Below, one piece after another: positions 31,539-46,173 of a stretch of DNA of 64,000 bases. The notes under the pieces are model-generated. The model was given only the letters and a program-made list of their open reading frames with translations. It made no database searches and was not told the DNA's origin. Both the position numbers and the translations under genes were made by a program. Source of the stretch: Halorubrum salsamenti (GTDB taxonomy: Archaea > Halobacteriota > Halobacteria > Halobacteriales > Haloferacaceae); NCBI RefSeq assembly GCF_007671685.1, contig NZ_VCNL01000005.1, positions 1 to 64,000 on the forward strand, given 5' to 3'. Each line of letters begins with the position of its first letter. Within the stretch, counting starts at the first letter, position 1.

Positions 31539-31591
31539 ATAGTATCACATGAACGGAATATTTATGTGCGTTACGATACGACTCGTAATTG

Positions 31592-32942
<1,351 letters not shown>

Positions 32943-34667: not shown

Positions 34668-36320
34668 ATGATCGATGATCCGTACATGCAACAGGCTGTC
34701 ACAGAAGAATATCTGCCGAGCGATTCGGAGGCGCCCGACACCATCCACACGCTGCCAGAGCAGCACTACCCCAAGCGGATCAACGTCGTCGACGAGCTGG
34801 TCGACAGACACGTTCGGGAGGGACGCGGGGATAGCGTCGCCATCTACTTCGAGGACCGGGAGATCACGTACGCGGAGCTACAGGAACAGGTAAACCGGCT
34901 CGGTAACGCACTCAAGGACCTCGGCATCGAACCGGGTGACCGGGTCGTTGCTCGGTTCCCAAACCGTCCGGAAGCGATCGTCACCTGTCTGGCGATCCAG
35001 AAGATCGGTGCCGTTGCGCTTCCGTCGATGAAGCTGCTCCGAGCGAAGGAACTGGAGTACATCATCAACAACGCAGAGGCGGCGGCGGTCGTCGTCTACG
35101 ACGACCTGCTCAGCGAGGTGGAGAACGCGCTGCCGAACCTCGACACCGTCGAGGACGTGATCGTCGCAGGGCGCAACGGTGTCGACCACGACTACCACAG
35201 CTACGACGACCTAATTGCGGCGGCCGACGCCGAGCTGGAGGCGCACGACACGGAGCGCGACGATCTCGCGCTAATGCTGTACACGAGCGGGACGACGGGA
35301 CGACCGAAAGGCGCGATCCACACCCACCGGAACATCCTCGCGACCGCCGACGGATACGCACGCTACTGTTTGGAGCCGACTGAAGACGACGTCTTCGGCG
35401 GCAATCCGCCGCTTCCGTTCGCGTACGGATACGGCGACCTCGTCACCTTCCCGCTGCGATTTGGCGCGAGTGTGAGCCTCGTCGAGGACGCCAGCCCCGG
35501 CGACCTGCTGGAGGCGGTCGAGGACCACGGGATCTCGATCCTCGCGTCGATCCCGACTGGGTTCAACCAGATTCTCGAACGGCACCCCGACGGACCGGAG
35601 GAGTACGACGTCTCGTCGCTCCGGCTCGGACTCAGCGCGGGTGAGCCCCTGACACCGACGACGTTCGAGAAGTTCAAGTCCGCGTACGGGATCGACCTCC
35701 TCGACGGGATCGGGACGACGGAGATGCTCCACATCTTCATCAGCCACCGCCACGACGACGAGATCGATCCCAGCCCGACCGGGTTCCCGGTGCCGGGATA
35801 CGAGTGTAAGATAATCGACCCCGACACGGGGGAAGAACTCGAACGCGGGGAGTCCGGTCTGCTCGCCGTTCGGGGGCCGACCGGCATGGAGTACTGGAAC
35901 CGCCCGGACAAACAGCAGGAGGTCACGCAGGACGGCTGGTCGATCCCCGGCGACATCTTCGTGCAGCGCGAGGACGGCCGCTTCGAGTACAAGTCTCGCA
36001 GCGACGACCTCATCATCTCCAGCGGGTACAACATCCCCGGTCCAGAGGTAGAGGCGGTTATCGAGGAACACGAGTCAGTCTCCGAGGTCGCCGTCGTCGG
36101 TAGCCCCGACGAGCAGCGTGGCGAGATCGTCAAGGCATTCGTCGTTCGCGCCGAGGACGAAACCGACGACGACGAGCTGATCGAGGAGATCCAGAACCAC
36201 GTGAAAAACACCCTCGCGCCGTACAAGTACCCCCGTACGGTCGAGTTCTGCGAGTCGCTTCCGCGGACGGACACAGGGAAGATCCGGCGTACCGAACTGC
36301 GCGAGCAGGAACACGAGTAG
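34668..36320 (+). CDS. Acyl/aryl-CoA ligase (AMP-forming; benzoate-CoA-ligase-like)
   Basis: A 550-aa ANL-superfamily enzyme that activates a carboxylic acid to its CoA thioester with ATP. Motifs: P-loop-like LMLYTSGTTGRPKG, DGIGTTEMLH (A5), the QDGWSIPGDIF Asp (A7), KSRSDDLIISSGYNIPGPEVE hinge (A8) and the catalytic Lys in PRTDTGKIRRTEL. The opening (HYPKRINVVDELVDRHV) and loop LLRAKELEYIINNAEAAAVVV resemble benzoate/2-aminobenzoate-CoA ligases. It lies 0.8 kb from the ferredoxin and paa-like genes and probably supplies their substrate. A TATA box at 34652-34658 is only 10 nt before the first ATG, so the in-frame ATG at 34686 may be the real leaderless start. Confidence 0.85.
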   Translation: MIDDPYMQQAVTEEYLPSDSEAPDTIHTLPEQHYPKRINVVDELVDRHVREGRGDSVAIYFEDREITYAELQEQVNRLGNALKDLGIEPGDRVVARFPNRPEAIVTCLAIQKIGAVALPSMKLLRAKELEYIINNAEAAAVVVYDDLLSEVENALPNLDTVEDVIVAGRNGVDHDYHSYDDLIAAADAELEAHDTERDDLALMLYTSGTTGRPKGAIHTHRNILATADGYARYCLEPTEDDVFGGNPPLPFAYGYGDLVTFPLRFGASVSLVEDASPGDLLEAVEDHGISILASIPTGFNQILERHPDGPEEYDVSSLRLGLSAGEPLTPTTFEKFKSAYGIDLLDGIGTTEMLHIFISHRHDDEIDPSPTGFPVPGYECKIIDPDTGEELERGESGLLAVRGPTGMEYWNRPDKQQEVTQDGWSIPGDIFVQREDGRFEYKSRSDDLIISSGYNIPGPEVEAVIEEHESVSEVAVVGSPDEQRGEIVKAFVVRAEDETDDDELIEEIQNHVKNTLAPYKYPRTVEFCESLPRTDTGKIRRTELREQEHE

Positions 36321-37144: not shown

Positions 37145-37429
37145 TTAGGGGCTCTCGTCGGTTCGGATCCGGAGATCCGAGCGGGGCTTCGCGATGCAGG
37201 TGAGGGCGTATCCCTCCTCTTGCTCGCTGTCGGAGAGGAACATCCCCTCCGTCTGGTCGACCTCGCCCTCCTCGACGATCATCGCACTGCACACGCCGCA
37301 GACGCCCATCCGACACTGGTAGGGTGGCCTGAGCCCAGCTTCCTCGGCCGCTTCGAGGATCGGTTTGTTTTCGGGTATCTCGATCGTCCGTCCCTCGTCG
37401 ACGAACTCTACAGAGTAGGTTTCGACCAT
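37145..37429 (-). CDS. Plant-type [2Fe-2S] ferredoxin
   Basis: A 94-aa ferredoxin with the classical ligand spacing C39-x4-C44-x2-C47 (YQCRMGVCGVCSA) and C78 (YALTCIAKP). It resembles the C-terminal ferredoxin domain of PaaE and of ring-oxygenase reductases, without the flavin/NAD domain. Because no PaaE homologue is present beside the paaABC-like operon, this protein probably brings electrons to that oxygenase from a separate reductase. It is transcribed away from the paa genes together with the GNAT gene upstream (6-bp gap). Confidence 0.9.
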   Translation of the reverse strand: MVETYSVEFVDEGRTIEIPENKPILEAAEEAGLRPPYQCRMGVCGVCSAMIVEEGEVDQTEGMFLSDSEQEEGYALTCIAKPRSDLRIRTDESP

Positions 37430-37435
37430 CAGTCG

Positions 37436-37930
37436 TTACTCCTGGTCGGTCGACCGCTCGAAGACGTGCTCGACCGGCTCGAACCCGTTCGCCTCGTAGA
37501 ACCCCTCGGACCCCTCGTCGCCGTGGATGACATCGACGCGGTAGAAGTCGATATCCTTCGGCGACTGCGTGAACCACTCGTGAACCTCGTCGAGCAACGC
37601 CGCGCCGAGCCCGTTTCCGCGGTGGTCTTCGCTGACAAAATGACCGTTGATATACCCGTGGTCCTGCAGACGGAAGATCGGGTGGTTCCCCGTGATACGC
37701 GCCTCGAGCACCCCGACGAGGTCACCCGTCTCCTCGTGCTCGGCGACGATGACGTTCCCGTACTTGGAATCGACGAGCTGGTTCTCGAAGTACTTGAGCC
37801 ACCGGTCGTCGGCGTCCTCCTTGTGTTCGTAGCGATCGTCGTGCTTCGAGAGGTGGCTTGTGAAGCCGTGCCACAGATCCAACAGCTCGGCGCCGTCATC
37901 CATCGTCGCCTCGCGTATCTCGTACGTCAT
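37436..37930 (-). CDS. GNAT family N-acetyltransferase
   Basis: A 164-aa single-domain acetyltransferase. The acetyl-CoA-binding motif A is seen as NGHFVSEDHRGNGLGAALLDEVHEWF (R/Q-x-x-G-x-G/A) and motif B as GFYEANGFEPVEHVF. It precedes the ferredoxin by 6 bp on the minus strand and is divergent from paaA. A substrate cannot be assigned; acetylation of an amino-aromatic compound or of a toxic amine would fit the neighbourhood, but that is speculation. Confidence 0.85.
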   Translation of the reverse strand: MTYEIREATMDDGAELLDLWHGFTSHLSKHDDRYEHKEDADDRWLKYFENQLVDSKYGNVIVAEHEETGDLVGVLEARITGNHPIFRLQDHGYINGHFVSEDHRGNGLGAALLDEVHEWFTQSPKDIDFYRVDVIHGDEGSEGFYEANGFEPVEHVFERSTDQE

Positions 37931-38118: not shown

Positions 38119-39039
38119 ATGCCAACAGAGAAGCGATTCAAAGAGGAGTTGCAAAACGGACGGATGATCGAATCGACCGAAGAGATGACCGACGGCTATA
38201 AGAAGGCGCTCAAGCAGATCCTGACCGTCTCGGGGGATACGGAGCTGATGAGCGCGCCGGCGTACTACGACCAGTCGCTCAACGCGCCGTCGATGGACGC
38301 TCGGGCGTCATGCGTTAGCGTCATCCAGGACGAACTGGGTCACGGGCACATCGCCTACCGGCTCCTGGAGGATTTGGGCGAGGATCGACACGAGCTCATC
38401 TACGAGCGTGAGCCCCACGAATTCCGGAACACGTACGGATTCGATCAGCACCTCGATAATTTTGCCGAGCTCGTGTCCGCCCACGGGATGTTCGATCGCG
38501 CGGGGATCGTGCTTCTCAGCGACATTCACGAGAACACCTCGTACGCGCCGTGGAAGCGCGCGCTCACGAAGGTGAGCAAGGAAGAGCAGTTCCACCTTCG
38601 ACACGGTGAGACGTGGATGCGCCGGCTCGCCAACAACAGTGAAAAGACGCGCCAGCAGCTCCAAGACGCGATTGATTGGATGTTCCCGATGGGCGTCGAG
38701 TGGTTCGGTATGCCGGACGACAAGAAGAAGCACGACGATCAGCTCGAGTACCGGATCAAGGGCAAGTCCAACGACGAACTCCGCCAAGATTGGCTCTCCC
38801 GGGCGATGCCGCTGATGGACGAACTGGACCTGGACGTGCCGGCCCACTACGACGAGGAGCAGGATAAGTACGTGCTCGAGTACGATATGCCGGTCGCGTT
38901 CGACCCCGAGAATAAGGAATGGCGCTTCGACGAGCCGATCTCTTGGTCGGACGTCATCGATCGATGGCGCTCTCGCGGCCCGGCCAACGAGAAGTACGTG
39001 AACATGATCCAGTCCGGCACGGTCAACGTCCAGGTGTAA
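38119..39039 (+). CDS. paaA: PaaA-like oxygenase catalytic subunit (1,2-phenylacetyl-CoA epoxidase family)
   Basis: A 306-aa ferritin-like diiron oxygenase subunit, nearly the length of E. coli PaaA. The two diiron motifs are E72-x2-H75 (QDELGHGHIAY) and E156-x2-H159 (KEEQFHLRHGE). It would insert oxygen into the ring of an aryl-CoA thioester to give an epoxide. It heads a tight operon (1-bp gaps and ATGA overlaps) with PaaD-like, PaaB-like, PaaC-like and a zinc-ribbon protein. The ATG at 38119 follows TTATAA at 38078-38083 by 36 bp; a TTG upstream at 38086 would be too close. Phenylacetyl-CoA is the known substrate of the family, but benzoyl- or aminobenzoyl-CoA cannot be excluded. Confidence 0.9.
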   Translation: MPTEKRFKEELQNGRMIESTEEMTDGYKKALKQILTVSGDTELMSAPAYYDQSLNAPSMDARASCVSVIQDELGHGHIAYRLLEDLGEDRHELIYEREPHEFRNTYGFDQHLDNFAELVSAHGMFDRAGIVLLSDIHENTSYAPWKRALTKVSKEEQFHLRHGETWMRRLANNSEKTRQQLQDAIDWMFPMGVEWFGMPDDKKKHDDQLEYRIKGKSNDELRQDWLSRAMPLMDELDLDVPAHYDEEQDKYVLEYDMPVAFDPENKEWRFDEPISWSDVIDRWRSRGPANEKYVNMIQSGTVNVQV

Positions 39040-39040
39040 C

Positions 39041-39436
39041 ATGTCGAGCGCACCATCGGAATCCAATGACGTGTCGACGGCGTCCCTGACCAGTGAGTTT
39101 GTCGCAGAGCGGCGGACCGACGCATCGCCGTTCGAGCAGCAGCTGTGGGACGTCCTCGACGAGATCCCCGACCCACACATTCCGGTCAGTCTCGTCGAGA
39201 TGGCGATGATCTACGACGTCGACGAAGACGACGGCCACGTCACGGTCGAGATGTCGTTCCCCTGTATGGGGTGTCCGGCGTACGACATGATCCACAACGA
39301 CGTCGAAAGCTGTCTGACAGTGCTCGACGGCGTCGACGAGGTCGATATCGAGGTCGTCTGGGACCCCGTCTGGTCGAAAGACATGCTTACGCCCGCAGTC
39401 AGAAACAAAATGAACGAATCCGGTATCAGCCTCTAA
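39041..39436 (+). CDS. paaD: PaaD-like MIP18/DUF59 protein, N-terminal part only
   Basis: A 131-aa protein of the MIP18 (DUF59) family. The signature DPHIPVSLVEMAMIYDV and the Cys motif SFPCMGCPAYDMI (C75, C78) are present, and it ends ...VVWDPVWSKDMLTPAVRNKMNESGI, like the DUF59 part of PaaD. Bacterial PaaD continues into a C-terminal zinc ribbon; here the protein stops and the ribbon is encoded separately at 40408. PaaD is thought to mature the iron or iron-sulfur centre of the epoxidase system. It sits between paaA (1-bp gap) and paaB (1-bp gap). Confidence 0.85.
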   Translation: MSSAPSESNDVSTASLTSEFVAERRTDASPFEQQLWDVLDEIPDPHIPVSLVEMAMIYDVDEDDGHVTVEMSFPCMGCPAYDMIHNDVESCLTVLDGVDEVDIEVVWDPVWSKDMLTPAVRNKMNESGISL

Positions 39437-39437
39437 C

Positions 39438-39647
39438 ATGAAGTACGAAGTATTCGCACGAGTCAATCAAGGCGACGACACCATCCACATCGGAAACGTC
39501 ACCGCCAAGTCGGACCGCCTCGCGAAAGTGTACGCCCGAAACACCTTCAACGAGGAGGACTGGGACCGGCTCGCAGTCGTCAGGGAGGACCAGCTTCTCG
39601 ATGTCACAGGTGAGGCCAAGCCGACGGTCGAGGTGGGCACCCAATGA
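39438..39647 (+). CDS. paaB: PaaB-like structural subunit of aryl-CoA epoxidase
   Basis: A 69-aa protein similar to PaaB: MKYEVFARVNQGDDTIHIGNVTA, then AKVYARNTFNEEDWDRLAVVRED. Bacterial PaaB is about 95 aa and bridges PaaAC heterodimers; this version is shorter at the C-terminus. Its stop overlaps the paaC start (ATGA), so subunits are made in equal measure. Confidence 0.85.
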   Translation: MKYEVFARVNQGDDTIHIGNVTAKSDRLAKVYARNTFNEEDWDRLAVVREDQLLDVTGEAKPTVEVGTQ

Positions 39648-40408
39648 GCGACTGGCCCGACCCGGCGGTCGACTACGTGCAGGCGATCACCGACACGAAG
39701 ATCCTCCTCGGTCAGCGGTACGCCCAGTGGAGCCTCGCCGGCCCCTCGCTCGAGGACGACATCGGCGGCGCCAGCGCCGCCCAAGAAGAGATCGGTCACG
39801 TTCGCCAGCTCGTACGCGAGCTGGAGGGACAAGGCCGCGACGCCGATTGGCTTAACGGCGACCGCGATCCCGAGGAGTTCGCTAACGCGTCGTCTCTCGA
39901 CCGAATCGACGGCGAGTGGCCCGAATACCTCGCCTCGATCGCTCCCGCTGACCGCGCCGCCTGGTACATGCTGGACGCTATCGACCGGGACGACCTGGAC
40001 GGACTGATCACCAAGATCGGCGAAGACGAATATTTCCACTTGGAGTATCACGATGCCCGTCTGGAGACGCTCGCAGCGGAATATCCCGAGCGGATTCAGG
40101 CGACTCTCGAGGAAACGCTCCCGCAGGCGCTCGCGCTCATCGGCCCGGCCGCGCACGATGAATCGGCGGATCCGGTATACGACACCGGATTCACCGACCG
40201 ATCGACGGCCGAGCTTCGCGAGGCGTTCGCCGACCACTACCGGGAGCTGTTCGCCGACACCGACGTCTCGCTGGAGGCCGTCGACTGGGACGCGCCACCG
40301 ATCGAGGAGTGGGACGAGACGCGCCGGCGCGCCGACGGTGGGGCGGTCTCCGAGGAAGACGTCACACAGATCAGCGGCAAACAGAACGAGCTGTTCGCGA
40401 TGAACTGA
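39644..40408 (+). CDS. paaC: PaaC-like ferritin-fold subunit of aryl-CoA epoxidase
   Basis: A 254-aa ferritin-fold protein with PaaC-type length and layout (DTKILLGQRYAQWSLAGPSLEDDI at the start, YHDARLETLAAEYPERIQ in helix 4). In bacteria PaaC is a metal-free scaffold that stabilises PaaA. Here two diiron-type motifs seem to be kept: E49-x2-H52 (QEEIGHVR) and E129-x2-H132 (EDEYFHLEYH). The stop overlaps the start of the zinc-ribbon gene at 40408. Confidence 0.87.
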   Translation: MSDWPDPAVDYVQAITDTKILLGQRYAQWSLAGPSLEDDIGGASAAQEEIGHVRQLVRELEGQGRDADWLNGDRDPEEFANASSLDRIDGEWPEYLASIAPADRAAWYMLDAIDRDDLDGLITKIGEDEYFHLEYHDARLETLAAEYPERIQATLEETLPQALALIGPAAHDESADPVYDTGFTDRSTAELREAFADHYRELFADTDVSLEAVDWDAPPIEEWDETRRRADGGAVSEEDVTQISGKQNELFAMN

Positions 40409-40590
40409 TGGCGATGACAAACAAACAGACCGAACCCGTCGTGGCCTGTCCGTTCTGCGAATCAACGGACACGGAACAGGAGTCGGCCTTCGGGAGCGAG
40501 ATCTCGAAGACGCAGTACTACTGCAACGGCTGTCACACGGTGTTCGAACGGATCAAGTACGACGGCGCGAACCCTGACACCGGTCGGTAG
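40408..40590 (+). CDS. PaaD C-terminal-like zinc-ribbon protein
   Basis: A 60-aa protein with two CxxC pairs (CPFCES and CNGCHT). The intervening TEQESAFGSEISKTQYY and the FERIKYDG tail match the C-terminal domain of bacterial PaaD (CPxCGS...S.FGST...C..C..PF..FK). The start overlaps the paaC stop (ATGA). Together with the DUF59 gene at 39041 it reconstitutes PaaD as two chains, separated in the operon by paaB and paaC. Confidence 0.8.
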   Translation: MAMTNKQTEPVVACPFCESTDTEQESAFGSEISKTQYYCNGCHTVFERIKYDGANPDTGR

Positions 40591-40717: not shown

Positions 40718-41554
40718 ATGTCGCTCCGACCGTTCGACGAGCTCGAACTCGAGTATTTCACGACCGAAGTAGACAACCACGTGGGCGTGCTCCGCCTTGA
40801 CCGACCGCCGGCGAACGCGCACGACATCGACGTCCTGCTCGAACTCCAGCGCGCCGTCGAGTCGATCCGCTTCGACGAGAACGTCCGCGCGGTGCTTTTC
40901 GGCAGCGCCAACGACAGGTTCTTCTCGACCGGCTTCGATATCCAGGAGCTCGACGAGGAGTCGGGCCGGCAGGTCGGATACGCGAGCCAGACCAGCAAGG
41001 AGGTCATGATGAAGATCCGGTCGACGGACACGATTTTCATCGCGATGGTCAACGGCCACTGCATGGGCGGCGGCCTCGAACTCGCGCTCGCGTGTGACTT
41101 CCGGTACGTCGGCAACGACGACGACTACAACATCGGGATGCCGGAGATCAGCCTCGGCCTCATCGCCGGCGAGGCCGGCACGCAGCTGCTGCCGCGCTAC
41201 ATCGACCGGTCCGAGGCGCTGGAGATGATGCTCACCGGCGACACGTTTACGCCGGAAGAGGCGACCGAGAAGGGAATCTTCGACAAGATCTTCCCGCCGG
41301 AAGAGATCGAAGACGCCGCCTTCGAGTTCGCCGAAGAGATCGTCCAGAAGCCGAGCGTCGCGGTCGGCAACAACAAGCTGGCGGTCAACGAGGGGCTGGA
41401 GATGCCGCTGCAGGACGCGCTCGTTCACGAGCGTGAACTCCAGAACCGCCTGCTCGGCTCCGACGTCGCCAAGGAGGGCGTCAGCGCGTTCCTCGAGGAC
41501 CGCGAGCCCGACTTCCTCGGCGTCGAACTCGGCGACAAAGAGCCCGGCGAGTAA
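40718..41554 (+). CDS. Enoyl-CoA hydratase/isomerase family protein linked to paa-like operon
   Basis: A 278-aa crotonase. Oxyanion motifs STGFDIQEL and NGHCMGGGLELALACDF and both acidic positions (GGGLELA; GMPEISLGLIAGEAGTQLLPRY) are present, so hydratase activity is possible. The ALA/AEAG substitution of the usual PGGGG loop is unusual. It lies 127 bp behind the zinc-ribbon gene on the same strand and could act on the epoxide or oxepin-CoA product, complementing the PaaG-like enzyme at 14059. Confidence 0.85.
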   Translation: MSLRPFDELELEYFTTEVDNHVGVLRLDRPPANAHDIDVLLELQRAVESIRFDENVRAVLFGSANDRFFSTGFDIQELDEESGRQVGYASQTSKEVMMKIRSTDTIFIAMVNGHCMGGGLELALACDFRYVGNDDDYNIGMPEISLGLIAGEAGTQLLPRYIDRSEALEMMLTGDTFTPEEATEKGIFDKIFPPEEIEDAAFEFAEEIVQKPSVAVGNNKLAVNEGLEMPLQDALVHERELQNRLLGSDVAKEGVSAFLEDREPDFLGVELGDKEPGE

Positions 41555-41612: not shown

Positions 41613-42590
41613 TCACTCTTCCAGTCGTTTCGCTTCCGACGGCGTGAGTGACTGCTCCGTCGGATACGCCTCGACCGTCGCCCGGAATCTGACCGGCGGT
41701 CCGTCGATCCGTTCGACGACGTCGACGGCGGCGAGCCGTCGGAGGTGAGCCGCGGCCTCGCCGGCACCGAACTTCGCGTGGATACCCGAGAGGTCACCGA
41801 ACAGCGTCTTCGCCACCGTCCACGGTGTCGACGGCTCCTCGGTGTCGGCGACCGCCTCGAAGGCGGCGGTCGCCCGCTCCCGGTGGTGGCGTCGTACGGC
41901 CGCGGTCTCGGCCGCGACATCGATGACCGTCCCGTGTCCCGGGCGAGCCGTCAGTCGGGCGGACTCGATCCGAGACAGCGAGTCGAGGTACTTCCCCAGC
42001 GGGTCGGCGAGTCGGGTGTCGCTACCGCCGACGTTAGGGGTGTATGTCGGCAACAGCAGGTCACCGAGAAACAGGTCCGTCTCCGTGCGGAGCGAGACGT
42101 GGCCGGCGGTGTGGCCCGGTGTGTGAACGAATTCGATCCCGCCGACCCGGTCTCCGTCGTCGTGTCGGTAGACCGGATGGGTGTCCGGGATCGGAGACGG
42201 CGCGTCGCCCTCGGCGACCTCGTCGCGGACCGGTTCCGGAACGCCCCAGCGTTCGAGGGTCCGACGATCGCGTTGCACGCGCCGCTTCCGGGCGCTCGCG
42301 TACTCGCCGACGAAGGGCGCGTCGCGCCGGTGGAGATGTACCGTCGCGTCCGTGCGGTCGGCGAGCCGGCAAGCGAGCCCCGCGTGGTCGGCGTGCCAGT
42401 GGGTGACGAACACGCGCTCAAGGTCACCGAGCCGGCAGCCGGCGGCTTCGATCCCGTCGCGGAGGTCGCGCCACGCCGCGTCCGTCGGCGGACCGGGATC
42501 GACGACGGCGTGCTCTGTCGGAAGGAGGTACGCGCTGTTCGTCCCCTCCGGCGTCCCCTCGCCGACGGGGATCCGGACTGGGTCACTCAT
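41613..42590 (-). CDS. Metallo-beta-lactamase-fold hydrolase
   Basis: A 325-aa MBL-fold enzyme with THWHADHAG, HTPGHTAGHVSL, LFLGDLLL and RPGHGTV metal motifs and a C-terminal helical domain of about 85 aa (TPWTVAKTLFGDLSGIHAKFGAGEAAAHLRRL). It is a paralogue of the protein at 9722, sharing the same second domain. Its start overlaps the end of the UbiD-family gene at 42583 by 8 bp, so it is the last gene of a four-gene minus-strand operon. A thioester- or lactone-hydrolase function is likely but unproven. Confidence 0.82.
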   Translation of the reverse strand: MSDPVRIPVGEGTPEGTNSAYLLPTEHAVVDPGPPTDAAWRDLRDGIEAAGCRLGDLERVFVTHWHADHAGLACRLADRTDATVHLHRRDAPFVGEYASARKRRVQRDRRTLERWGVPEPVRDEVAEGDAPSPIPDTHPVYRHDDGDRVGGIEFVHTPGHTAGHVSLRTETDLFLGDLLLPTYTPNVGGSDTRLADPLGKYLDSLSRIESARLTARPGHGTVIDVAAETAAVRRHHRERATAAFEAVADTEEPSTPWTVAKTLFGDLSGIHAKFGAGEAAAHLRRLAAVDVVERIDGPPVRFRATVEAYPTEQSLTPSEAKRLEE

Positions 42591-44061
42591 CGTCGTCGAA
42601 CCGGTCGGGACGGATCGCGTCGTCGAGCCCGAACTCGTCCCAGCGATCGGCCAACGACGCCAAGACGTTTTCGGAGAAGGCGGTCTCCATCGTCACCCGG
42701 GGCGCGATGTATTCCTCGTCCCAGCGCGGGTCCCACGTGGCGTTGATGTAGAGCCGCGAGCCGGAGTCGTCGTCGCGGTACGCCGGCGCGGCAGCGCTGG
42801 GGGCGTTCGATTCGCTAAACACCCAGTCGTTCGCCGGGTGCGCTTTCACCCACATATCGTCTAATGCGCGGGCGAGATCGGTCGGCTCCACCTGCTCGTC
42901 AACGATGAGTACCTTGTCGAAGAGATCGGAGAAGGAAAACAGCGTGTTCGCCAGTTGCCACTCGAAGCCGGCGTACAGGATCTCACTCGAGACGATACAG
43001 AGCCCGAGACGTCCCTCGACGGGGATCTGAATCCACCGCACCGGAGAGACTCCCCAGTAGTTGTTCACCCGACGGAACAGCTTCGCGGCTTCAGCCAGAC
43101 ACGCCAGGTGGATGTCGTCGGCCAGGGCCTCACCGGACGGCGAAAACGGTATCGTTGGGCTTTCGCGAGCCGCGATCGCTGTCGTCTCTACCGTAACTGT
43201 CGCCGTCTCGCACCCGGTTTCCCACGCCGCACCCCGTCCGGTAGCTGCGGACGTCGGATCGTCCGCCGTCGCAGGGCGGTTTCGCTCCCCGTCGACGTCT
43301 CGGGAGTCGCCATCGCGATGGTCGGCAACAGTTAGCTCGCCGTCGATGCGTACCTCGGCGTCGGCTGGGATCGTTCGTCCGTCGACGGTCGACAGCGGAT
43401 CGTCGCTCAGCCCGGCGGCGAGGGCCGGCACGTCCGGCGTCGGCTGCCCTTGTGTCCACCCCTGCAGTGCGGCGAGTAGCATCGCGACCGGCACGCCGAG
43501 AAGGACGCTTGCGTCGGCTTCCCGCGGACACCACTCAGCGAACGCCCGTGGGACCGAGAGTTTCAGTTCAGTGCTTCTACGGCCCCGTCCGGCGATCGGC
43601 ACCCACGTCGTCGTGTCGTCTACTTCGACTGCAAGCACGCCGAGCGAGACGAGTGGCACGCCGTCGCGTGTCATCGGCAGTCCGAGGTCGTACAGATCGA
43701 TGCCGTCACGAACCGTCGCCTCCGGTTCCGCGACCATCTGCTCGTCGATGGGAGCGGGCCCCCAGCGGACGAGTTGGTCGAGCATGTCGACATACGATCT
43801 ATCTGACGGCTCACCGAGCGCGAGGTCGATCCGACTCCACGGCTCCTTGTTGCCTGTGGAGAACTGATCGGGCCCGCCGTAAACGCCGCTCGCCAACTGA
43901 GCAAGCCCGGGAGTCTCGGCGAATCGGACGACCGGACAGTCGTGTCGGGTTGCCTCCGCCGCCACCGCCTCGGCCTCACCGTCCCAGTGGACTCGTTCGG
44001 TTACGTCGACGACGTCGTCGGTCTCGCGGAGCCGATCGAGGTGGTCCCGCATCCCCGTCAT
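42583..44061 (-). CDS. UbiD family protein, catalytic motif degenerate
   Basis: A 492-aa UbiD-fold protein. Recognisable family parts are VVRFAETPG, GVPLVSLGVLAVEV, AVPVAMLLAALQG-like sheets and the C-terminal DKVLIVDEQVEPTDLARALDDMW and APRVTMETAF. At the place of the hallmark EGPFGE-type motif (Arg-Glu-Glu triad) there is a low-complexity charged insert, DHRDGDSRDVDGERNR (about 245-260) and onward, so decarboxylation through prenyl-FMN is unlikely. It overlaps the intact UbiD gene by 4 bp (ATGA) and probably forms a heteromer with its product, as PpcA/PpcB-type phenylphosphate carboxylase subunits do. Confidence 0.78.
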   Translation of the reverse strand: MTGMRDHLDRLRETDDVVDVTERVHWDGEAEAVAAEATRHDCPVVRFAETPGLAQLASGVYGGPDQFSTGNKEPWSRIDLALGEPSDRSYVDMLDQLVRWGPAPIDEQMVAEPEATVRDGIDLYDLGLPMTRDGVPLVSLGVLAVEVDDTTTWVPIAGRGRRSTELKLSVPRAFAEWCPREADASVLLGVPVAMLLAALQGWTQGQPTPDVPALAAGLSDDPLSTVDGRTIPADAEVRIDGELTVADHRDGDSRDVDGERNRPATADDPTSAATGRGAAWETGCETATVTVETTAIAARESPTIPFSPSGEALADDIHLACLAEAAKLFRRVNNYWGVSPVRWIQIPVEGRLGLCIVSSEILYAGFEWQLANTLFSFSDLFDKVLIVDEQVEPTDLARALDDMWVKAHPANDWVFSESNAPSAAAPAYRDDDSGSRLYINATWDPRWDEEYIAPRVTMETAFSENVLASLADRWDEFGLDDAIRPDRFDDDE

Positions 44062-45566
44062 CGTTTCCCCTCATCCTCGGCGAACTGGAGATCATCTATC
44101 TCTACGCCGGCCCGTTCGAGGATCTGCCTCGCGCGGTATCGCCGGTCGACGTCGGAGGCCGCGCTGTCGCGGCGTCGAGCCTCTTGATCTGTCGCGTCGC
44201 TGCTCGTCGCGTCGATGTACGCCTTGGCGGTCTTCGCCTTCGAAGTGCCGGTCTGGATATCCCCCTTCTCTGTCGGGGTCTGATAGATGTTCAGGGGCAC
44301 CTTCGGCATCGTCTCGACGCCGAACTGGTGGAAATCAGCGTCGGGATCCGCATGCAGCGCGAGCGCTTCGAGTACCGCACGCTGGTCGAGCGGGTTGACG
44401 TCGCCGTCGACGAACACGAAGAAGTCGACGTGCAGCATCCCCCACGTGGTGAAGATGAAGTTCGCCATATCGTGGAGGTAGCTCGGGTCCGTCTTCTCCG
44501 TGGAAATGACGTATACCGTCCGCGGCGTCGACTTCCACGGCGCGCAACACTCGACATCGAAGCCGGCGGTGCGGAGCCCCAGCGTTGCATCAGGGCCGAC
44601 ACAGCCGACCTCCATCGAGCTCGTCGTGTTCTCCGTTTCACCGACGCCCGTCCCTTCGACACAGAACGGGATGATCGGATCCTCTCGGCTGGTGATCCCG
44701 GTCACCCGGAACAGGGGCATCGACCGCCGAGGGCCATGCATGTAGCCGAAGTAGTCACCGAACGGCCCCTCGTCGCGGCGCTCGTTTGGTAAGATCTCTC
44801 CCTCGATCACGAGTTCGGCACTCGCCGGCACCATGAGATCGTTCGTCTCGCAGGGAACGAGATCGATGGGCTCACGCTTTAGCCCTCCCGCGTACTCCGC
44901 TTCGTTTCGACCCGTCGGGATCCACATCACGGAGGTGTACTGTACGGCCGGTTCGACACCGACGGCGAGCGCGACGGGCATGGGCTCGTCGCGCCGTTCG
45001 TACTTGTAGTAGTAGAGGTTCGGTGTCTGTTCACCTGCTAGCAGCAGGACGCTCGATGTTTCGCTGTCGTGGATCATCGACCGGTGGTACGACCAGTCGA
45101 CCCACTCAGAATCGGGATCGGGGGCGATGAGGGTGTGGAGGTTCGAGTAGCGTCCCCCGTCGCCGGCGTGGATGTACGGCCACGGGTACTGCAGGAGGTC
45201 GACGTCGTCGCCTGTCTGCACCTGCTGCTTGCACGGGGCATCGTCGGGGGAGACAGTCCGCGGTTCGATCGGGTCTTTCAGCCGATCGATCACGGACTCG
45301 TAGTACTCATTATACGAGAGATCTCCGGGGAGCCCGAGCGCGAGCGCTATCCGGTCCCACGGCCGACGCTGAGAGCCGCGATACGGATCGCCGACGAGCC
45401 GGGCTGTGTCGACGTCCTCGAACAACGGCACGTCGCCGTTGGCCTCGTTCAAGAGAAGCGTCACGGCACTGGCTTCCAGGTTCCACGAGACGGATTCGTC
45501 GATCCGATGGAGCTCGCCTCGTGCCTCGAGGATCCGGAGGTAGTCTCGGAGGCTGTCGGCGGTCAT
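44058..45566 (-). CDS. UbiD family prenyl-FMN-dependent (de)carboxylase
   Basis: A 502-aa UbiD. The catalytic segment NERRDEGPFGDYFGYMHGPR holds E266 and D271 (positions of the paired acids), with the cofactor-binding block around GRYSNLHTLIAPDP and SVMWIPTGRNEAEYAGG. Such enzymes add or remove CO2 from aromatic or unsaturated acids. UbiX, which makes prenyl-FMN, is not in the window. It starts 4 bp inside the end of the small gene at 45563 and overlaps the next UbiD-like gene. Substrate unknown; given the neighbours an aromatic acid is plausible. Confidence 0.87.
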   Translation of the reverse strand: MTADSLRDYLRILEARGELHRIDESVSWNLEASAVTLLLNEANGDVPLFEDVDTARLVGDPYRGSQRRPWDRIALALGLPGDLSYNEYYESVIDRLKDPIEPRTVSPDDAPCKQQVQTGDDVDLLQYPWPYIHAGDGGRYSNLHTLIAPDPDSEWVDWSYHRSMIHDSETSSVLLLAGEQTPNLYYYKYERRDEPMPVALAVGVEPAVQYTSVMWIPTGRNEAEYAGGLKREPIDLVPCETNDLMVPASAELVIEGEILPNERRDEGPFGDYFGYMHGPRRSMPLFRVTGITSREDPIIPFCVEGTGVGETENTTSSMEVGCVGPDATLGLRTAGFDVECCAPWKSTPRTVYVISTEKTDPSYLHDMANFIFTTWGMLHVDFFVFVDGDVNPLDQRAVLEALALHADPDADFHQFGVETMPKVPLNIYQTPTEKGDIQTGTSKAKTAKAYIDATSSDATDQEARRRDSAASDVDRRYRARQILERAGVEIDDLQFAEDEGKR

Positions 45567-46060
45567 TCCCCTTCCCGAAGCTCACTTGTCAGTTCGCTCC
45601 GCTCTGACTCAACCTTGAGGTCGATGTACTCGCTGACCACCTCTGGGTAGGCGTCGGAGAGGTATTCAAGCATGATCGTCCGGCTCGCCTCTGACACCGA
45701 CTCGAACTCCCCGCGCTCGGTGAGGTACTGAAGCAGCGTCTTCACTTCCTTCGACCGCGTGTTGATCACTGTCGACTGGTCGTCGACTCGTTCCATCGCC
45801 GACTTAAGCAGTTCGTGATCGACCTGTTCGCCGTCATCTGTCTCGATCACGTCCACGTACCACTCCTCCTCGATGTTTTCGTGGGGGCCCTTGACGACCG
45901 TCAGACGCTCGGGATCCGAGAGGTTCTCCGGGTCCGTGTCTACTTTCGCTTTGATGTCGAAGATCTCTTTTGTCTCCTCATCACTCACCTGCAGTCGGAT
46001 CTCTTTTCCTTCCGGATCCTCAGGCAAATTGTTTTCCGACGTGACGTACTTTCCTGCCAT
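45563..46060 (-). CDS. Small acidic protein of unknown function, first gene of UbiD operon
   Basis: A 165-aa soluble protein with no cysteine-based motif or membrane segment. It begins MAGKYVTSENNLPEDPEGKE, has a beta-rich first half (RLTVVKGPHENIEEEWYVDVIE) and a helical second half (LLQYLTERGEFESVSEASRTIMLEYLSDAYPEVV). I do not recognise it. The stop overlaps the UbiD start by ATGA, so it is co-translated and may be a third subunit or assembly factor. The ATG at 46060 is preferred over a TTG/ATT-type extension to 46090. Confidence 0.7.
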   Translation of the reverse strand: MAGKYVTSENNLPEDPEGKEIRLQVSDEETKEIFDIKAKVDTDPENLSDPERLTVVKGPHENIEEEWYVDVIETDDGEQVDHELLKSAMERVDDQSTVINTRSKEVKTLLQYLTERGEFESVSEASRTIMLEYLSDAYPEVVSEYIDLKVESERSELTSELREGE

Positions 46061-46173
46061 CGTTACCGATAGATACTGGACGATGTTCAATAAAACCCCT
46101 TACCAACGTCCGTGGGAACTCTGCGAAAATCGGCTGGGAACGAGAATCGCCTGCGCGAGACGCACACAAAGAA

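Follow-up and report, generated by a model that had tools for sequence, protein, structure and literature searches.

Gene content and layout of the operon

We analyzed the first 64,000 nucleotides of contig NZ_VCNL01000005.1 of the haloarchaeon Halorubrum salsamenti (referred to here as the window), which carry a five-gene operon resembling the genes for bacterial phenylacetyl-CoA epoxidase. The operon had been proposed in an earlier reading of this DNA (the original prediction), and all five of its open reading frames (ORFs) were recovered as one tight operon on the forward strand. In order, they encode a PaaA-like catalytic di-iron subunit (38119..39039; 306 amino acids; PF05138, 4.7e-60), a DUF59/MIP18-type putative maturation protein corresponding to the N-terminal half of PaaD (39041..39436; 131 amino acids; PF01883, 2.1e-17), a PaaB-like bridging subunit (39438..39647; 69 amino acids; TIGR02157, 3.8e-6; PF06243, 4e-5), a PaaC-like structural subunit (39644..40408; 254 amino acids; PF05138, 4.1e-21), and a stand-alone zinc ribbon corresponding to the C-terminal half of PaaD (40408..40590; 60 amino acids; PF23451 [Zn_ribbon_PaaD], 9.7e-18), for which a start at 40414 is also possible. 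The junctions are, in the same order, two 1-bp gaps, a 4-nt ATGA overlap, and a 1-nt TGATG overlap; the original prediction had described the gaps and the ATGA overlap correctly but not the last junction.

The PaaA- and PaaC-like proteins scored 203 and 76 bits against PF05138, the PaaA/PaaC ferritin-like di-iron family, for which the cut-off is 28.5. The window PaaB is shorter than that of E. coli, and its PF06243 score was just under the Pfam cut-off. On the 146-position PaaD model TIGR02159, the DUF59 protein spanned positions 1-89 and the ribbon positions 100-144, so together they represent the two PaaD halves. The claim that these halves are separate genes was therefore upheld, and both Pfam and NCBIfam profiles placed the ribbon clearly with the PaaD C terminus.

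Family profile searches of the whole genome (3.67 Mb, 99.96% complete) returned a single PaaA/PaaC pair and a single PaaD-type ribbon, with no second Paa-type oxygenase and no match to the BoxB-type single-chain oxygenase model TIGR03225. No full-length PaaD was found elsewhere in the genome, and no PaaE was found above the cut-off. The best match to the PaaE model (56 bits versus 420.8) was a flavin-reductase-like protein that lacks the ferredoxin domain and is encoded on a different contig. Thus, the genome offered no PaaD or PaaE that would pair better with these subunits, and the predicted lack of PaaE was borne out.

Relationship to canonical and haloarchaeal Paa families

The window proteins fell well short of the cut-offs of the canonical models, with 131.9 bits for PaaA (equivalog model TIGR02156, cut-off 280), 26.9 for PaaB (TIGR02157, cut-off 85.45), 44.8 for PaaC (TIGR02158, cut-off 133.35), and 68.6 and 39.8 for the two PaaD halves (TIGR02159, cut-off 108.15). 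They also failed to reach those of the haloarchaeal equivalogs (NF041867-NF041869), where PaaB scored 19.5 bits (cut-off 150), the DUF59 protein 104.4 (NF041868, haloarchaeal PaaD, cut-off 180), and the ribbon 40.9 (NF041869, haloarchaeal "PaaE," cut-off 100). Scores this far below the haloarchaeal cut-offs indicate that the window proteins are something else. The same NCBIfam set describes a PaaB, a PaaD consisting of DUF59 only, and a "PaaE" that is a 56-position zinc ribbon, and Haloferax mediterranei is annotated with separate DUF59 and ribbon genes next to paaK. A split PaaD is therefore not new, since curated models already cover it in the ordinary paa operons of haloarchaea. The premise of a one-protein PaaD held for the canonical bacterial operons examined but not for haloarchaea. 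The name "PaaE" given by NF041869 to the ribbon half of haloarchaeal PaaD is also in use for the bacterial flavin reductase, a clash that may lead surveys of pathways astray.

Distribution, gene order, and phylogeny

A genome-wide scan, using a pattern that demanded [VAI] at residue 68 of PaaA, found 228 relatives, and 80 loci were kept for analysis. These loci span Halobacteria, Chloroflexota, Actinomycetota, Bipolaricaulota, Armatimonadota, Acidobacteriota, Gemmatimonadota, KSB1, and others. When gene layouts were counted in the scan loci together with plasmids of Thermus and Agrobacterium, the order A-DUF59-B(-B)-C-ribbon was exact in 72 loci, showing that the window arrangement is not due to chance. 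The split layout was also found in Thermus, Rubrobacter, Ktedonobacter, and others, and DUF59 and ribbon were joined in one ORF at none of 75 loci, although the same models detected the fused PaaD of E. coli. The gene tables of the Thermus and Agrobacterium plasmids omit the ribbon gene, which is nevertheless present in their DNA. In Thermus, paaB occurs as two short adjacent genes (locus L107, 15241-15629), and profile hidden Markov models detected this doubling in Rubrobacter, KSB1, and other bacterial loci as well.

The closest relative of the window PaaA was that of Halorubrum saccharovorum (98% identity), and 43 of 391 Halobacteria genomes carried a window-like PaaA (identity of at least about 60%) among the matches listed. 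On plasmids searched by tblastn, the top bacterial relative was from Thermus thermophilus, with approximately 50-51% identity, versus approximately 28% for canonical PaaA. The family to which H. salsamenti belongs holds two kinds of loci, the window type and the canonical A-B-C-DUF59-ribbon type, whose PaaA has approximately 29% identity to that of the window, and some genomes carry both. In a tree of 98 PaaA sequences, a branch with Shimodaira-Hasegawa approximate likelihood ratio test support of 100 separated the window clade (79 rows, 33 archaeal and 46 bacterial) from all canonical PaaA proteins, with bacterial and haloarchaeal PaaA together on the canonical side. On the basis of these comparisons, the window operon is placed in a second major, cross-domain clade of the Paa-type oxygenase family. 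The five-gene order was found in other haloarchaeal genomes, but it is not specific to archaea, being common to haloarchaea and many bacterial phyla. Because PaaD is split in both types of haloarchaeal locus and fused only in the canonical bacterial operons, the fused protein may be the derived form. In the literature searched, we found no report on this clade, on a Thermus benzoyl-CoA epoxidase, or on the DUF59/zinc-ribbon split, and a pathway survey reported archaeal cases only as incomplete configurations (PMC13186573).

Active site of the PaaA-like subunit

All six first-shell iron ligands are kept in the window PaaA (E42, E72, H75, D126, E156, and H159), and the corresponding residues in E. 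coli numbering (Glu42, Glu72, His75, Asp126, Glu155, and His158) were retained across the clade with one exception. A divergent PaaA of Natrialbaceae AArc-T1-2 (L109, 9968-10954) has Gln in place of the ligand Glu155. In canonical PaaA, Lys68 forms a bridge with Glu49, Glu72, and Asp126 for which a part in electron transfer has been suggested (PMC4498308). The window protein instead has V68 and Y49, and across the clade Ile or Val replaces Lys68 and Tyr replaces Glu49. A count of 84/84 proteins without the lysine bridge was biased because the scan pattern itself required [VAI] at this position. Lys68 was therefore recounted in 29 clade loci identified through the zinc-ribbon family or tblastn, with no residue 68 pattern, and was present in none of these 29 rows versus all 20 canonical rows.

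Two other positions distinguish the clade, which has Thr41 and Ser45 where all canonical proteins have Ser and Gly. When published residue numbers were aligned at the shared ligand Glu, these residues fell in register with Thr119 and Ser123 of BoxB, which belong to the second shell and orient the benzoyl group (PMC5489048). An AlphaFold model of the window PaaA (pLDDT 92.8) matched the fold of E. coli and Klebsiella PaaA with a Z score of 32 and that of BoxB with a Z score of 21, making PaaA its nearest solved structure.

A linked ferredoxin and the supply of electrons

The lone plant-type [2Fe-2S] ferredoxin noted near the operon was confirmed at 37145..37429 on the reverse strand, divergent from paaA and above the TIGR02008 cut-off. 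It is apparently cotranscribed with a gene for a GNAT-family protein (37436..37930, reverse strand; PF00583, 5.2e-13). Of the 35 haloarchaeal loci, 34 had the ferredoxin gene next to the operon, each time paired with the GNAT gene; none of the 50 bacterial loci did, and the GNAT gene was not found there either. The canonical haloarchaeal paa loci have neither gene linked, and PaaE was absent from every one of the 85 clade loci (35 haloarchaeal and 50 bacterial). The lack of PaaE, together with the retention of the ferredoxin in nearly all haloarchaeal loci, makes a different electron supply likely, as the original prediction had proposed, with the stand-alone ferredoxin as the putative electron donor. 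Haloarchaea reduce plant-type ferredoxin via 2-oxoacid:ferredoxin oxidoreductases, which would explain why an NAD(P)H-flavin reductase is not needed.

Linked catabolic genes

The proposed substrate activator is an acyl-CoA ligase assigned to the benzoate-CoA ligase family (34668..36320, forward strand; TIGR02262, 384.8 bits versus a cut-off of 375.25). Downstream of the ribbon is a crotonase gene of the enoyl-CoA hydratase/isomerase family (40718..41554, forward strand; PF00378, 1.2e-55), a candidate for handling the epoxide or oxepin, which follows the ribbon in many haloarchaeal loci. A search for a BoxC orthologue in the genome gave weak crotonase matches only, the best of them being this same protein (60.4 bits versus 712). 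Ligases of the benzoate-CoA family were present at 33 of 35 haloarchaeal loci and crotonases at all 35, and often linked with them were a branched-chain-type ATP-binding cassette (ABC) transporter, an acyl-CoA dehydrogenase, CoA transferases, and a UbiD pair. Bacterial loci contained aldehyde dehydrogenases and crotonases, with a strong benzoate-CoA ligase in the Thermus and Rubrobacter types. In Thermus, this ligase scored 591 bits (cut-off 375), and a 3-oxoadipyl-CoA-thiolase-like gene reached 561 bits, below its cut-off of 597. Between 7.8 and 22 kb, the window itself has two more crotonase genes, together with genes for an aldehyde dehydrogenase, a PaaF-like hydratase, and a 3-hydroxyacyl-CoA dehydrogenase.

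Beyond the crotonase, on the reverse strand, are a metallo-beta-lactamase (MBL)-fold hydrolase (41613-42590), two tandem UbiD-family genes (42583-44061 and 44058-45566), one of them without a recognizable PF01977 domain, and a 175-amino-acid ORF beside the pair (45563-46090). This block (41613-46090) is conserved with many of the haloarchaeal operons; UbiD genes were near 20 of the 35 haloarchaeal loci and at no bacterial locus.

Comparison with known systems

The window operon shares with canonical PaaABCDE of E. coli and Klebsiella the PaaA/PaaC di-iron pair, PaaB, both PaaD domains, the first-shell ligands, and the PaaA fold. It differs in the low identity of its PaaA (approximately 29%), the splitting of PaaD around B and C, the absence of PaaE and of the Lys68/Glu49 bridge, and its link to a benzoate-CoA-type ligase instead of PaaK. 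As in the haloarchaeal paaABCDE of Haloferax mediterranei, DUF59 ("PaaD") and ribbon ("PaaE") are separate and no flavin reductase adjoins, but those operons have the order A-B-C-DUF59-ribbon, adjoin PaaK, keep Lys68, lack a linked ferredoxin and GNAT gene, and have a PaaA that groups with the bacterial proteins. BoxAB and BoxC of Azoarcus evansii likewise combine a di-iron epoxidase with benzoate-CoA ligase, crotonase, and aldehyde dehydrogenase genes, and T41 and S45 of the window correspond by residue register to Thr119 and Ser123 of BoxB; unlike the window protein, BoxB is one long chain without PaaB or PaaC partners and is served by BoxA. A further counterpart is the Thermus thermophilus plasmid cluster pHB5018c (L107), which belongs to the same clade and has the same split order, along with benzoate-CoA ligase, aldehyde dehydrogenase, crotonase, and thiolase genes. 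It differs from the window in its two paaB genes and in lacking a linked ferredoxin, GNAT, or UbiD gene. Its annotation uses generic names only and does not list the ribbon gene.

Proposed function and alternatives

Judging from sequence, these five genes would encode a PaaABC-type di-iron monooxygenase with a two-piece PaaD, acting as a ferredoxin-driven aromatic acyl-CoA epoxidase, probably on benzoyl-CoA, that does the job of BoxAB; we assign this explanation a probability of roughly 0.55. After uptake of an aromatic acid, the ligase encoded at 34668 would form the aromatic acyl-CoA, most likely benzoyl-CoA. The DUF59 protein and ribbon would aid the loading of iron into PaaA, a maturation role naturally suggested by the involvement of DUF59 relatives in metal-cluster assembly and by the finding that PaaD is required in vivo but dispensable in vitro. 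PaaA, held by PaaB and PaaC, would receive two electrons from the ferredoxin encoded at 37145, activate O2, and epoxidize the aromatic ring. Crotonases and an aldehyde dehydrogenase would then open and oxidize the ring, and beta-oxidation-type enzymes would complete its breakdown, so that the role of BoxAB would be carried out with Paa-type parts. The choice of benzoyl-CoA as the substrate draws on the ligase family, the lower-pathway genes, and the two pocket residues, which are suggestive. For the characterized enzymes, benzoyl-CoA inhibits PaaABCE, and phenylacetyl-CoA is not turned over by BoxB (PMC4498308).

Several results weigh against this explanation. The TIGR02262 subfamily also includes ligases that act on substituted benzoates, and the margin by which the window ligase clears its cut-off is just 10 bits. 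Only 13 of the 50 bacterial loci had a linked ligase and two had a PaaK-like one, so substrates may vary within the clade. The register with BoxB was set from published residue numbers at the shared ligand Glu, and the further BoxB pocket residues Gln116 and Thr210 have no counterpart in the window PaaA. The genome contains no 3-oxoadipyl-CoA thiolase above the cut-off, and beside the bacterial operons other iron-sulfur carriers appeared as scattered motif matches only, none of them conserved.

The activity supposed in the original prediction, that of an archaeal phenylacetyl-CoA 1,2-epoxidase of divergent sequence, would fit the shared subunits and fold, the status of PaaA as the nearest solved structure, the PaaK-like ligases at the two bacterial loci, and the fact that this is the sole Paa-type oxygenase of the genome. 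However, haloarchaea own a separate canonical operon beside PaaK, with both kinds present in some genomes, and the window clade is shared with many bacteria; moreover, every subunit is far under the Paa equivalog cut-offs, the conserved lysine bridge is gone, and the genome has no PaaK above the cut-off. We consider action on phenylacetyl-CoA improbable, and the label "archaeal phenylacetyl-CoA epoxidase" is probably incorrect. We likewise doubt that the true substrate is a substituted or related compound, such as a hydroxy-, amino-, or phthalate-derived benzoyl-CoA or one set by the UbiD pair. The UbiD and MBL genes near 20 of the 35 haloarchaeal loci would suit such a substrate, as would the 3-hydroxybenzoate-CoA ligase relatives within the ligase subfamily and the resemblance of linked acyl-CoA dehydrogenases to cyclohexane-1-carbonyl-CoA dehydrogenase, but the UbiD block is missing from bacterial loci and so is not part of the core system, and Thermus carries a plain set of benzoate-CoA ligase, aldehyde dehydrogenase, and thiolase genes. 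Haloarchaeal breakdown of benzoate and 4-hydroxybenzoate via gentisate has been reported (PMC4005966, PMC6140281), and a ring hydroxylase could feed that pathway if the epoxide rearranged to hydroxybenzoyl-CoA. This is highly improbable here: gentisate 1,2-dioxygenase had no match in the genome, while that search did yield a match in Haloferax volcanii, albeit below the cut-off, and the linked crotonases and aldehyde dehydrogenases fit ring opening of the Box/Paa type.

If the enzyme is a benzoyl-CoA epoxidase, it could possibly represent an undescribed aerobic class, which we propose tentatively, defined by PaaABC-type subunits, a two-piece PaaD, ferredoxin-type electron supply, and no lysine bridge, and replacing BoxAB in haloarchaea, Thermus, Rubrobacter, Chloroflexota, and other phyla. 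The aerobic breakdown of benzoyl-CoA would then include a further kind of enzyme that attacks the ring, one that is widespread among archaea and among bacteria not usually regarded as Box or Paa degraders. In annotation pipelines, the genes now receive the names "phenylacetic acid catabolic protein" and "metal-sulfur cluster assembly factor," and surveys of aromatic degradation would accordingly misassign their pathway. The clade also offers a natural experiment for examining the function of PaaD, whose halves are separable here, and the need for the lysine bridge in electron transfer.

Other features of the window and of related loci

The region 7811-28525 also contains genes for acyl-CoA dehydrogenases, a thiolase-like protein, an amidase, and a branched-chain-type ABC transporter and appears to form a more extensive island for degrading aromatic compounds or acids on this 323-kb contig. 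The amidase gene adjoins a TnpB/IS200-605-type transposon-like ORF (31589-32854, forward strand) with a zinc-finger-like cysteine pattern at its C terminus. Box-type ring cleavage releases formate. In Haloterrigena turkmenica, formate dehydrogenase genes follow the cluster (L110, 24242-28918).

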